In this document: one piece after another, positions 4,503-32,014 of the stretch | Position numbering within the stretch: position 1 is the stretch's first letter | Layout: each line of letters starts with the position of its first letter | DNA from: a virus | Reading direction: 5' to 3' (one strand) | Virus record (IMG/VR): IMGVR_UViG_3300042923_000444 | Span: 1 to 33,672 of that record | DNA: 33,672 bases | Translations under genes and position numbers: made by a program | The notes under the pieces: model-generated | What the model was told of the DNA's origin: nothing | Seen by the model: the letters and a program-made list of their open reading frames with translations, nothing else | Database searches by the model: none

Positions 4503-4555
4503 CTCGTTGTATCAGGGGTCGTGGGTGGGTGCTCTGCGTGTTATGGGAAAGCCTA

Positions 4556-5726: not shown

Positions 5727-6676
5727 TGGGTTACAACGCGATCCATGGGACGCGTACCACTGTTGAGATCCAAACGTTCCTGAAGACCGCGGGCCTGTAC
5801 ACGGGTGCGGTGGATGGGCGTTGGGGTCCGATGACCGACGCCGCTGTCATCACCTACCAGAAGTCGAAGTTCATCACGGCGGACGGAATCTGGGGTATCA
5901 CGACGGATGGGTTCGCGTTCCCCCCGGCAGGGTCCACCCACGGGGTTGACTATTCGTTTTCCCGCCCCGACCCGACCATGCTCGCTTCCCGTGGGGTGAA
6001 ACTCGCGGGCCGGTACCTGTGGGCGGAGAAGTACCTGGACGGGCGCACCAACAAGGGCATCGGCCCGACCGAGCTCATCGCACTCACCAGCGCGGGGATT
6101 GACGTGTTCTTCATCTATGAGGAGGACGGTAAGGAACTGTTGGGCGGGTTCGACGCGGGTGTCCGTGTCGCGAAAGCCGCCGAAGCGTTCCTGAACAAGC
6201 TGGGCCTGCGCTGGTTCCCCATCTACTTCAACGTGGACTATGACGCACCGGCTACGGACATGCCGAAGATCCTCGCCGCGCTGGACGGTATCGCCTCCGT
6301 GATCGGCCTGGACCGGACTGGACTGTACGCCGGCCTCGGCCCCCTTAAGGTCGCGTTTGATGCGGGGAAGATCCGGTGGGGCTTCCAAACGTACGCATGG
6401 TCCGGTGGGGTCTGGGACTCGCGGGCACAGTTGCAGCAGTGGTCGAACGGTCAGTGGGGCAACACGGTTGACTTCACCCGGGCGATGGTGGGGGAGTACG
6501 GGCAGAACCCGGTCATCCCCCCGGTGGTGACGGACAGGCTCGCGCTCGAGGCAGATCTGGCGACGATCACCGATGTTGTGGACCGGATTGTGGATGCGTC
6601 CGCTTCCATCTCGGCACAGTTGCTCCGCGCCCGTCAGGTGCAGGCGCACCTCCGTGACGTGCTGGACGAGACATGA
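5726..6676 (+). CDS. Second endolysin: peptidoglycan-binding plus DUF1906 glycoside hydrolase-like domain
   Basis: 316 residues; ATG 5726 overlaps the upstream TGA. Residues 12-60 are a peptidoglycan-binding domain 1 repeat (EIQTFLKTAGLYTGAVDGRWG...GIWGI). Residues 73-275 match DUF1906 (Rv2525c-like, TIM-barrel): GVDYSFSRPDP, GVKLAGRYLWAEKYLDG, IDVFFIYEEDG, IYFNVDYDAP, WGFQTYAWSGG, LQQWSNGQWG. The acidic residues on the strand ends suggest a hydrolase. A C-terminal helical tail follows (285-316). With the M15 enzyme it gives two different bond specificities. DUF1906 activity itself is not established for this protein. Confidence 0.75.
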   Translation: MGYNAIHGTRTTVEIQTFLKTAGLYTGAVDGRWGPMTDAAVITYQKSKFITADGIWGITTDGFAFPPAGSTHGVDYSFSRPDPTMLASRGVKLAGRYLWAEKYLDGRTNKGIGPTELIALTSAGIDVFFIYEEDGKELLGGFDAGVRVAKAAEAFLNKLGLRWFPIYFNVDYDAPATDMPKILAALDGIASVIGLDRTGLYAGLGPLKVAFDAGKIRWGFQTYAWSGGVWDSRAQLQQWSNGQWGNTVDFTRAMVGEYGQNPVIPPVVTDRLALEADLATITDVVDRIVDASASISAQLLRARQVQAHLRDVLDET

Positions 6677-8855: not shown

Positions 8856-9109
8856 CGGCTCACGTCCGGGCTTACGAACCCCCGCCCGCGCTGACTGTCC
8901 CGTATGTGCTGAGAGGCCCCTTCCCTAGTGTTTTCTAGGGAAGGGGCCTCTTCTGTGTTGTGCCCCCGACAGGAATCGAACCTGCGACCTTTGGTACCGG
9001 AAACCAACGGAATGGGGTAGGATGAGAGGGTGAGCCGCGGAAAATCAAGGGATTCGGCTCACGTAGAACCCTATAGGCGGGTATAGTATGGCTTACGCGA
9101 TGGCTTACG
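8856..9109. other. attP: Phage attachment site (attP) with core and integrase arm-type sites
   Basis: The core 8961-9009 is, on the minus strand, the 3' part of a tRNA-Arg(CCG): anticodon stem TTGGT/ACCAA with loop TTCCGGT, T-arm GCAGG-TTCGATT-CCTGT, acceptor strand CGGGGGC and discriminator A. No D-arm or 5' acceptor strand follows, so it is not a whole tRNA. Flanking it are repeated octamers GGCTYACG: 8857-8864, 8869-8876, 9056-9063, 9090-9097 and 9102-9109, plus an inverted copy at 9030-9037. These are candidate arm-type sites. CGGCTCACGT is perfect at 8856-8865 and 9055-9064. The integrase gene starts 0.7 kb away. The site is uninterrupted, meaning non-integrated DNA. Confidence 0.8.
8913..8950. 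terminator. Perfect 16-bp hairpin terminator beside attP core
   Basis: GAGGCCCCTTCCCTAG (8913-8928) pairs perfectly with 8935-8950 around a TGTTTT loop, followed by TTCTGTGTTG. It ends ten bases before the tRNA-like core. After integration it would insulate the host tRNA side from phage transcription. Confidence 0.85.
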
Positions 9110-13249: not shown

Positions 13250-13509
13250 ACGTCTCGGTTCTGGCGGCTGGTGCCCGCGTGTATCTGGTTCACAACACCC
13301 CGGAACACGCACACGACCGTGTCGCACCCCAACACGTCACCTACCTCGGAACCAACACGGTCGGCGCGGTTGTCGAGTCGCGGGGGACTGTGCACACGAT
13401 CCGGTGGGACGACCCGGACTGGTACATCGCGGACGTTCACACGTTGTCTGCGTTCACGGTCGGGGATGAGGAACCCGATTTGCGGGGAACACCCCCAGAC
13501 CTCGAATAA
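13246..13509 (+). CDS. Small protein of unknown function
   Basis: 87 residues from ATG 13246 (MNVSVLAAGARVYLVHN...). The protein is beta-rich: VGAVVESRGTVHTIRWDDPDW looks like a small SH3-like barrel of the kind found in many actinophage early genes ('V..I.WDD.....V....L'). Acidic tail. Coupled to the preceding gene by ATGA. Function unknown. Confidence 0.6.
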   Translation: MNVSVLAAGARVYLVHNTPEHAHDRVAPQHVTYLGTNTVGAVVESRGTVHTIRWDDPDWYIADVHTLSAFTVGDEEPDLRGTPPDLE

Positions 13510-13583
13510 CCCCGGTTTCTGCTGCCGATTCGTCGGTGGCTTGGCCACAGCACACCCAAAAACAAGCAAAAGGAGCAGGACAA

Positions 13584-13778
13584 ATGGCAGCAGGAGCAGC
13601 AGACCGCGCGAAGAACGCGGCAATGGCGGCGGACCTCAAGCGGCGTGGCATCTACCACGGGATGCGGCAGGGGCCGGGGCCTCGCCACAACAACATCCCC
13701 GTGAACGAGCCGGGCAGCGCGGCCTACCGGCGGCTCATGGCGAAGCTGCGGCATCCGGGCCGCGGCTACGGGAACTAG
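13584..13778 (+). CDS. Small basic protein of unknown function
   Basis: 64 residues; AAAAGGAG is eight bases before ATG 13584. Ala/Lys/Arg-rich N-terminus (GAADRAKNAAMAADLKRRG), then GPGPRHNNIPVNEPGSAAYR. Very basic; nucleic-acid binding is plausible but not shown. It ends the first early gene cluster: a 685-bp non-coding block follows. Confidence 0.6.
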   Translation: MAAGAADRAKNAAMAADLKRRGIYHGMRQGPGPRHNNIPVNEPGSAAYRRLMAKLRHPGRGYGN

Positions 13779-14463
13779 CCCACCTCGCATTGCCTCCACT
13801 TCTGGTGGACACCCGCGTCACGGCGGAGCAATGCACGCAAGACAACCAAATACTGCTGGCCCACCAGGGGCCGGGGACTCCCAAAAACCCTCACCGGGTC
13901 GGGATGCGAACCGGTCAACGATGGCGCGATTCGTACTGATGGATGACTCAATCCCCAGCACAAATCCCGGCCCCTGGCCCAGCAGGCGAAACAAGACTCA
14001 CAGGAAACCGTAGCTGTAGTGGGCAGGCGGGGGCGGGGTCGAAAGGGAAGAGCAGGAGTGACTTTGACGGGTCACCTGCTCAAGAGTCAGGCGTTATGAC
14101 GCCTGATACATATTTTGGCGCTGATGGTTCGGCTGCTGACTCCCTGGGCATAGGTCACTGAAACGCGACGGCGTGACGGTGTGATCGTTTGACTCCCGGG
14201 GCATAGGCCGATGAAGGCGCGCGGACGCGCAGGGCTGACGGTTCTTTCGTCGTGGTTCGACTCCACGAAGCCCGCGATGCAGCGAGCGGGACGCCTGGCT
14301 ACCAGTGCGGTAATCCACCCGCGACGTGTCAAACCGCGAGCTTGGCGGGCATCAGTGAAAGCACCCTAGCTGCGGGGTAACGCAGAGCCCTGGGACGGTA
14401 CACCGCTGTGCGAGTCAGCGGCAGGGCGCCACACATTCACTCCGCAACCGAAGGGAGCCCGTC
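13779..14463 (+). ncRNA. Non-coding block with many predicted hairpins (candidate structured RNA or control region)
   Basis: No convincing gene in 685 bp, exceptional in this packed genome. Seen: CCAGGGGCCGGG near 13862 inverted near 13957-13970; a bulged 11-bp hairpin (14050-14081, GAGCAGG...CCTGCTC); TCAGGCGT-TATG-ACGCCTGA (14087-14106) then a T-rich tail; two 26-bp direct repeats with four mismatches (14137-14162, 14190-14215); a compact three-way junction at about 14230-14276 containing the T-arm-like GTGG-TTCGACT-CCAC; and CCGCTG-N7-CAGCGG inside CCCTG...CAGGG (about 14389-14427). It could be one or more regulatory RNAs, a promoter/attenuator array, or an origin. Exact RNA ends are unknown. 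Confidence 0.45.
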
Positions 14464-14568
14464 ATGGGTGACATTGGCAAGCCGTTGAAGCACATCGAAC
14501 TTGAGCCCGTGGAAGCGCCGGCAACCGCGCCCGTCGAGGCTCCCGCAGAGGAACCGGTGCCCGCATGA
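14464..14568 (+). CDS. 34-residue acidic Pro/Glu/Ala peptide
   Basis: ATG 14464 is preceded by GAAGGGAG. Starts MGDIGKPLKHIELEPVE and continues as a Pro-Ala-Glu tail ending EEPVPA. Short peptides of this style are recurrent in actinobacterial phages and prophages, often just before the protein type encoded next. Its stop overlaps the following ATG (ATGA), so the two are co-translated. Likely disordered; role unknown. Confidence 0.6.
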   Translation: MGDIGKPLKHIELEPVEAPATAPVEAPAEEPVPA

Positions 14569-23224: not shown

Positions 23225-23844
23225 CGAACGAACTACTCGAAGCAGTCGACGAGCTCCGGAAGCGCAGCCGGAAACGAATCCGCAAGGGCAGCAACGCGCT
23301 CTGGTGCTCATGGGGACGCCACCGCACCTACAAACACCCCGAGCTCAAAGAGGAGTACCGCCACGGGTCGATCTGCCTGACTTGTCAGGTGGAGATCATG
23401 GCGAACCTCGAGAGCGTCGTCTACATGCCGCAACTGTCGGAGGCGATGCACGTCAAGGCGCGGAAGAAGTGGGAAACGAAGCGCGCACGGGAAGCGGCCG
23501 AGAAGCCGCTGCGGCGGAAGGCTCCCGACATGCTCGGGGTCGTCTACTACATCCGCATCAACGGTCAGGTGAAGATCGGTTACACGTCGAACCTCACGCA
23601 ACGGTCGCGGCACTACCCGCCCGGGTCGGAACTGCTGGCCGTTGAACCCGGCACCCGCGAGTTGGAGGCGAGGCGTCACCGCCAGTTCTCCCGCGACCTC
23701 GCAAGGGGCCGTGAGTGGTTCCACGAGTCAGACACCATCCGGGACCACGTCACCGCCCTTGTGGGCGAGTTCGGCAAGCCCGACGCGCTCATGTACCAGT
23801 ACACCGCTCACGAGGCGGCCCGGAAGGTGGGGCAGCATGCCTGA
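23221..23844 (+). CDS. GIY-YIG superfamily (T5orf172/MUG113-like) nuclease domain protein
   Basis: 207 residues. Residues 105-170 show the T5orf172 pattern: GVVYYIRINGQVKIGYTSNL, TQRSRHYPPGSELLAVEPGT, ELEARRHRQFSRDLARGREW(F), equivalent to the GIY-YIG fold's Tyr pair, Arg and Glu/His positions. An N-terminal zinc-like set (WCSWGRHRTY ... CLTC) and a basic coiled region (75-100) precede it. T5orf172 proteins are presumed DNA nucleases or DNA-damage factors; catalysis here is inferred from the family. Confidence 0.75.
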   Translation: MTNELLEAVDELRKRSRKRIRKGSNALWCSWGRHRTYKHPELKEEYRHGSICLTCQVEIMANLESVVYMPQLSEAMHVKARKKWETKRAREAAEKPLRRKAPDMLGVVYYIRINGQVKIGYTSNLTQRSRHYPPGSELLAVEPGTRELEARRHRQFSRDLARGREWFHESDTIRDHVTALVGEFGKPDALMYQYTAHEAARKVGQHA

Positions 23845-30556: not shown

Positions 30557-32014
30557 ATGGACGCGGATGCGGCCCGGAAACTGACTCAGCGGATTTACAC
30601 CCGCCTGAACAACCGTCGCCCGGATATTGAGCGGGCGGAGTCGTATTACGAGGGCGATCAGCCTCTCAACTTTGCGACTGATGAGTGGAAGAAGGCGAAC
30701 GCGTCCCGGTATGCGGACTTCTCCGACAACTGGTGCGGGACGGTTGTGAACGCTGAGGCTGAGCGGTTGAAGCCTATCGGTGTGACGAACATGCCGAAGG
30801 GTGCGGCGTCGAAGCTGTGGGATGCGTTGCAGATGAACGAGTTTGATGCTCAGTTCTCGCAGGGTGCGGTTACGGCTCTGACTGCTAAGCGGTGTTTCGT
30901 GATTGTGTGGGGCGACTCTGATGGGGAGCCGATTGTCACGTTTGAGCATCCGTCGTCGGTTGAGATTGAGTACGACTGGGAGAATCCGCGTTTGCGGACG
31001 GCCGCGTTGAAGACGTGGGTGGATGAGGACGACGAGTACGCGACCCTGTACACGGCGGATGACGTGTGGAAGTGGATTCGTCCGAGGGTGACGCCGGCTA
31101 ACGAGCTCGAGTCGATGTCGGAGCAGCAGCGGGAAGAGTACGCGGCATCGGGCGGGTGGAAGCCGCGTGAGGGTGCGGCTGACGACTCTTGGCCTGTGCC
31201 GAACAAGCTGGGTGTTGTGCCGGTGGTGGAGATCCAGAACCGTCCGACGTTGAAGGGTGACCCGCTGTCGGAGATTCAGGGTGTCATGCCGATGCAGGAT
31301 GCTATCAACCTGCTGTGGGCGTACCTGTTCCTGGCTGCGGATTACGCGTCGATGGATGCGCGGGTGATGCTTGGCACTCAGCCGCCCATGATCCCCATCC
31401 TGGATGCGGACGGTAAGCCGATCGGGCAGCGTCCGGTGGACATGAAGGATCTCCGGGAACGGCGCCTCATCACCATCACTGGGGATAACGCGAAGATCGA
31501 CTCGTGGAAGGCCGCGAGCCTCGACATCTTCACGGACACGATTGAGATTGCGGTGGGGCACATTGCGGCGCAGACCCGCACACCCCCGCACTACCTTGTC
31601 GCGAACAGGGGCATCTCGAACCTGTCCGGTGATGCGCTGAAGTCCGCTGAGATCGGCCTGAACAAGAAGGCTGGGGAGTTCATCACGTTCACTGACCCGC
31701 AACTGCGGGAGGTGCTGCGGCTGGTGGCTCTCGTGAAGGGCGACGCGAAGACGGCGCAGGCTACCCGGCTTGCGAAGATCGTTTGGGAGTCCCCGGAGAT
31801 CCGGTCTGAAGCGCAGTTGGCGGATGCTCTGGTGAAGAAGTCGCAGATGGGTTACCCGTTCGAGTACCTGCTGGAACTTGACGGGCGTTCCCCTGCGGAG
31901 ATTCGGCGGATCATGAAGCTGCGTCAGAAGGAACTCGACGAGGCGTTGGGTGCTGGGGTGCAGGCGGCGGTTCAGGGGGCCTTTGATGACGGCTCTGACG
32001 AGGTTGGCGAGTGA
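30557..32014 (+). CDS. Portal protein (SPP1 Gp6-like)
   Basis: 485 residues; GGAGGG is six bases before ATG 30557. N-terminal YYEGDQPLNFA, YADFSDNWCGTVVNAEAERL and the long helical C-terminal part (GDALKSAEIGLNKKAGEFI, EIRRIMKLRQKELDEALGAG) match the SPP1-type portal family. It forms the dodecameric vertex channel through which DNA is packaged. It directly follows terL and precedes MuF, the standard order. Confidence 0.9.
   Translation: MDADAARKLTQRIYTRLNNRRPDIERAESYYEGDQPLNFATDEWKKANASRYADFSDNWCGTVVNAEAERLKPIGVTNMPKGAASKLWDALQMNEFDAQFSQGAVTALTAKRCFVIVWGDSDGEPIVTFEHPSSVEIEYDWENPRLRTAALKTWVDEDDEYATLYTADDVWKWIRPRVTPANELESMSEQQREEYAASGGWKPREGAADDSWPVPNKLGVVPVVEIQNRPTLKGDPLSEIQGVMPMQDAINLLWAYLFLAADYASMDARVMLGTQPPMIPILDADGKPIGQRPVDMKDLRERRLITITGDNAKIDSWKAASLDIFTDTIEIAVGHIAAQTRTPPHYLVANRGISNLSGDALKSAEIGLNKKAGEFITFTDPQLREVLRLVALVKGDAKTAQATRLAKIVWESPEIRSEAQLADALVKKSQMGYPFEYLLELDGRSPAEIRRIMKLRQKELDEALGAGVQAAVQGAFDDGSDEVGE

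Follow-up and report, generated by a model that had tools for sequence, protein, structure and literature searches.

Armless tRNA-like elements between actinobacteriophage genes as candidate RNase P processing signals

The virus record IMGVR_UViG_3300042923_000444, analysed here over positions 1 to 33,672 (the window, 33,672 nt in all), contains a 685-nt block in its early region, 13779-14463, that holds no gene, which raises the question of what this stretch of DNA does. The block is bounded by a stop codon ending at 13778 and by the ATG of the next gene at 14464, with genes running rightward on both sides. An earlier reading of the letters alone (the sequence-only reading) had already called the block gene-free, and this is confirmed, as a Pfam search with the ORFs inside it gave no significant match. 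Moreover, a 1-nt indel between the window and the relative L023, within a shared part of the block that is 98.8% identical, breaks the reading frames and argues against coding; a protein-coding block was rejected on these two grounds. The accompanying statement that genes overlap everywhere else was overstated, since a gap of 77 nt lies at about 13507-13583 and a larger one around the likely attP. The latter is a tRNA-Arg(CCG)-like 3' half (TTGGTTTCCGGTACCAAAGGTCGCAGGTTCGATTCCTGTCGGGGGCAC) on the minus strand at 8955-9010, about 0.8 kb before the integrase, which is common to L023 and has a similar form in L024. The block itself was rejected as attP because the tRNA 3' half next to the integrase lies outside it.

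As a whole, the block folds better than its shuffles (z -3.0, plus strand), and its first 400 nt reach z -4.35 on the same strand, the lowest among 44 window segments tested. The strong hairpins of the sequence-only reading are present, namely the first two structures in Table 1 and a pair within 14050-14110 (z -6.0), as are the two 26-bp direct repeats, spaced 53 bp start to start. The distant inverted repeat was recovered at 14055-14066 and 14432-14443 as a weak match (83%). What had been described as a three-way junction with a T-arm-like hairpin proved to be the first of two tRNA-like elements; the second had been overlooked, and the idea of a single T-arm hairpin was dropped once it turned up. 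No Rfam family, GOLLD, ROOL and riboswitches included, reached its gathering score in the window. Arrays of terminators or promoters were rejected for want of any excess over shuffles. The proposed antitermination or attenuation array is likewise unsupported, as the sole terminator-like match (14086-14107) has no real U-tract and such matches are no commoner than in shuffles, and nothing was found that points to the second origin that had also been suggested.

Table 1 Features of the block and the first gene downstream, in window coordinates
Feature	Position	Strand	Basis or remark
Three-helix junction at the 5' end (GCATTGC...GCAATGC)	13787-13834	+	fold z -3.0
Long hairpin, 133 nt, arms of 11 and 12 nt	13853-13985	+	z -5.1
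Conserved core, GTCGAA(A)GGGAA - two hairpins - CCTGATACAT	14033-14112	+	sequence comparison
TGTATCAG motif	14103-14111	-	also 12451 (-) and 4507 (+)
26-bp direct repeat, copy 1	14137-14162	+	repeat search
26-bp direct repeat, copy 2 (85% identical)	14190-14215	+	repeat search
tRNA-like element 1, GGGCT-GACGGTTCTTTCG-TCGTGG[TTCGACT]CCACGA-AGCCC, then G-C	14232-14273	+	script scan
tRNA-like element 2, GCCCTG-GGACGGTACA-CCGCTG[TGCGAGT]CAGCGG-CAGGGC, then G-CCA	14387-14427	+	covariance model R1
34-aa gene (MGDIGKPLKHIELEPVE...), first 3' of the block	14464-14568	+	ribosome site AAGGGAG

The two elements share a minimal fold in which an acceptor-like stem of 5-6 bp is followed by a 10-13 nt linker carrying GG close to its start and by a 6-bp T-arm with a seven-base T-loop; the acceptor 3' strand comes directly after the T-arm, and there is neither a D arm nor an anticodon arm. 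At a score of at least 9, a scan for this fold gave two matches in the window, both inside the block, against an expectation of 0.05 per strand in mononucleotide-shuffled sequence. A script match at 23571 (-) was judged false, since it alone has no C74 and it runs antisense to the genes. Element 1, whose linker is 13 nt long and includes an alternative small hairpin, scores modestly with the covariance models R1 (25 bits, E 0.0014) and R2 (28 bits, E 5e-5). Element 2 reaches 40.9 bits with R1 (E 4e-7), being itself part of the R1 seed. The 110-nt piece between them does not fold unusually (z 0.2). Relatives carry one to three copies at matching places, and in L025, L027 and L028 the T-stem of element 2 is rewritten from CCGCTG/CAGCGG to TCGTCG/CGACGA with pairing kept. 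In L003, the place of element 2 is taken at 5850-5866 by a perfect T-arm (CCGGGGTTCGAGTCCCCG) that has no obvious acceptor stem.

The relatives L003, L023, L025, L027 and L028, all uncultured, are viral contigs found through neighbouring genes, and about a dozen further viral contigs were reached through the ERF recombinase and the core pattern. In GTDB genomes, the ERF query returned nothing and the core pattern gave matches without any sign of kinship to the block. The 5' junction recurs in L025, L071, L077, L078 and L080; in the six versions compared, a small sample, one of its helices has compensatory changes at three of four pairs and 96.6% of cells paired. The long hairpin occurs in this phage only, with different sequence at that place in L023 and L025. 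The core is 94-98% identical in L023, L025, L027 and L028, and a pattern search recovered it from 15 viral contigs, of which about 14 are convincing and most have a tRNA-like element downstream; across these 14 or so it reads GTCGAAGGG - hairpin(s) - CYTGATACA. The strong divergence of relatives between junction and core suggests that the block behaves like an assembly of RNA modules that can be exchanged. Modules also swap around element 2, which is followed by different genes in the window, L023 and L025. Throughout the homologues no protein is conserved here, while compensatory changes keep the hairpins paired, so that the earlier suggestion of a regulatory RNA holds to the extent that this is a conserved structured RNA.

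Several further features of this neighbourhood were observed. Sites of the form (A/T)TGTATCAG lie within the block, upstream of the repressor gene (12451, minus strand) and ahead of a gene near 4537, with counterparts in relatives at several of these three places; the motif may be a repressor or regulator site. In L077 (1320-1420) and L081 (3705-3810), tandem repeats (GATGGAGTGCGGAACGGGC...GCCCCGGCATTGAA) with changing hairpin loops separate the core from the tRNA-like element. The 34-aa gene is conserved in several actinophage contigs. At the DNA level, the small gene that precedes the block (13565-13745) shares about 70-75% identity with the end of small Curtobacterium and Microbacterium phage genomes (16-18 kb), for example Penne and Evcara.

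The shared element was revealed by the blocks of relatives only, as the window's own block used as a blastn query gave no match among phages. The blocks of L036 and L020 matched short stretches, most of them unannotated, in phages of Gordonia, Streptomyces, Mycobacterium and Corynebacterium. When single elements served as queries, 70 and 291 records were matched, including 139 Streptomyces, 30 Mycobacterium and 14 Microbacterium phages with one query and 31 Gordonia phages with the other. All 60 listed matches of one query fell under no annotated feature, and some weak Gordonia matches lay inside annotated genes; matches in Klebsiella and other non-actinophage records may be ordinary tRNA genes or chance. 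A genome carries up to eight copies. R1 matched 16 of 16 records tested and R2 13 of 16, several of these records having supplied seeds, and R1 gave one weak match on 14 further viral contigs. Many of the actinophages tested, phiC31 among them, have no R1 or R2 match, which implies that this phage group does not need the element in general. A strong match occurs in only 6 of 246 actinobacterial genomes sampled, suggesting that the element is phage-borne, in phages or prophages.

We found no description of the element in the open-access literature, Rfam 15 or ARAGORN, and it is not covered by these sources as searched. The nearest Rfam model is mascRNA-menRNA (RF01684), which recurs on the elements at 15-19 bits, far below its threshold of 42.5. 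ARAGORN called no tRNA or tmRNA in the window or L003 and one undefined tRNA-??? in phage Trine. D and anticodon arms are absent from all 44 elements collected, in which a 10-13 nt linker stands instead, the scan having searched linkers of 8-14 nt. In phiC31 (AJ006589, L113), ARAGORN reports, at 31424-31511 between genes 13 and 14, a tRNA-Gly (ccc) whose anticodon arm is odd and which is absent from the annotation of the record.

The position of the elements relative to genes is largely regular, the usual layout being a stop codon, about 8 nt, the element, 30-50 nt and a start codon. In phages Konstantine, Cafasso and Joe, intergenic positions on the coding strand account for nearly all elements, and most elements begin 5-14 nt past a stop codon and end 30-50 nt ahead of a start codon; for most of those in Konstantine and Cafasso the distances narrow to 6-10 nt and 42-49 nt. 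An element occupies 6 of 7 gaps of at least 84 bp in the stretch of Konstantine examined and all 6 gaps of at least 94 bp in Cafasso, while a comparison of element and gene positions in Joe places eight elements in eight gaps of the leftward operon. A small hairpin often lies between element and start codon in Konstantine and Cafasso, and several elements are followed by such a hairpin and then a ribosome site. Exceptions are Trine, where three tandem copies overlap an annotated hypothetical gene, and MakoManhole, where one gap holds two elements and three shorter gaps have none.

The stems of the element covary strongly. In an alignment of 29 elements, standard pairs fill 97.3% of pair cells compared with 70.8% after shuffling, double changes occur in 9 of 12 pairs, and controls with slid pairing fall to 41-55%; the second subtype shows 100% pairing with double changes in 8 of 11 pairs. 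These counts are optimistic, because the alignments followed the structure and a stem search supplied most of the elements. Many elements were first found by sequence similarity alone, and orthologous and blastn-only copies give the same picture.

Most of the bases that bacterial RNase P reads are conserved as well. In 44 elements (45 scan hits minus one judged false), G1-C72 is present in 41, a purine at position 73 in 43 and C74 in all 44, none of which was among the scan criteria. The stacked acceptor and T stems comprise 12 bp in 25 elements and 11 bp in 19, the total being capped at 12 by the script, and the T-loop reads TTCRANY in most. C75 and A76 are not conserved, and the match to RCCA is thus partial. 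According to a review of RNase P, model hairpins made of acceptor stem and T-arm are substrates, D73-C74-C75 pair with a GGU of the enzyme, G1/C72 is contacted, and the 12-bp stack is a suggested ruler (PMC11143913). The conservation of most of these bases, together with the known use of minimal hairpins as substrates, favours cleavage by host RNase P at G1. We therefore propose, with a probability of about 0.6, that the tRNA-like elements are RNase P processing signals at which a polycistronic early transcript is cut; we infer its transcription, the cleavage and the enzyme from the features described above. That the T-arm element belongs to a widespread intergenic family also fits transcript processing better than an array or an origin.

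Under this proposal, the block would be the untranslated part of the early rightward transcript that separates the cro/xis-like genes from the recombination operon, with a structured leader RNA at about 13779-14230 followed by the two minimal elements. Each element would mimic the tRNA half bound by RNase P, an acceptor stem stacked on a T-arm, and the GG of the linker probably takes the part of the D-loop in docking on the T-loop. The most likely site of cutting by host RNase P is the 5' side of each element, and RNase Z or another nuclease may cut the 3' side. The two cuts would yield a structured leader RNA with a defined 3' end, a 110-nt middle piece and a recombination mRNA that keeps its own leader and ribosome site. 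Repeated between genes in other actinophages, the element would punctuate polycistronic phage mRNA.

The fixed position just upstream of gene starts would also suit structures in the 5'-UTR that remain uncut and stabilise the mRNA or control translation of the next gene, bound by a host or phage protein that knows tRNA elbows, since T-loop and GG linker could form such an elbow. However, this leaves unexplained why G1-C72 and R73-C74, which lie outside the elbow, are conserved and why the ruler is a constant 11-12 bp, and we regard it as doubtful. It is less probable still that a large, free-standing regulatory RNA, or a second origin, makes up most of the block and that the elements only mark its end: while the 5' junction and core hairpins are conserved in about 14 viral contigs, relatives diverge strongly module by module, no Rfam family matches, nothing in the block is origin-like, and other phages have the elements but not the block.

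Strong hairpins between genes, some with a second small hairpin behind, might be taken for terminators or attenuators between operon genes, yet they lack a U-tract, sit inside operons whose genes all run in one direction, and conserve a T-loop, GG linker and R73-C74 that termination does not need, making this very unlikely. Even slimmer is the case for recombination boundaries used in cassette swapping between phages, with RNA shape secondary. The swapping around element 2 agrees with it but can be a side effect, and stem sequences that vary with pairing kept are the opposite of what a homologous boundary needs. Least probable of all is an attachment site or decayed host tRNA gene, despite the likeness of the T-arm to a tRNA 3' end, given the attP-like tRNA-Arg(CCG) half near the integrase, the many copies without anticodon or D arm, and the lack of an ARAGORN call in the window or L003.

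The proposed cutting by RNase P has parallels in known systems. Model hairpins and natural substrates, which include phage M3 RNA, the C4 antisense RNA of P1/P7 and some mRNAs such as that of T4 gene 32, likewise place an acceptor stem on a T-arm and share the ~12-bp ruler, G1-C72 and R73-C74 (PMC11143913). The phage elements differ from them as a repeated intergenic family with many members per genome, in which a GG linker replaces the D and anticodon arms and cleavage is predicted. The tRNA-like module also resembles mascRNA/menRNA, of which mascRNA is cut by RNase P and RNase Z; those RNAs are longer, have further arms and derive from mammalian lncRNAs, and we claim no homology. In Cluster K mycobacteriophages, SAS and ESAS are likewise repeated intergenic elements just upstream of gene starts; they are 13-bp sequence motifs and 17-bp inverted repeats, respectively, with no T-loop described, and the authors saw little support for RNA pairing in ESAS (PMC3203893).

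In mitochondria, tRNAs between genes mark the cut sites in polycistronic RNA. The phage elements resemble this punctuation in that a tRNA shape between genes marks predicted cut sites, whereas they are not tRNAs, have no anticodon and are carried by phages. At roughly even odds, the armless tRNA-like RNA would be a general cut-and-start cassette for host RNase P in actinobacteriophages of several genera, which in the group of the present phage also frees a large, fast-evolving structured leader RNA. If true, this would assign a function to intergenic gaps in many published actinophage genomes and carry tRNA punctuation over from organelles to phages, and it would make the expression of phage operons dependent on a host ribozyme. 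The elements would then offer a clean set of minimal, naturally occurring RNase P substrates that can be tested, as well as a marker for phage operon annotation.
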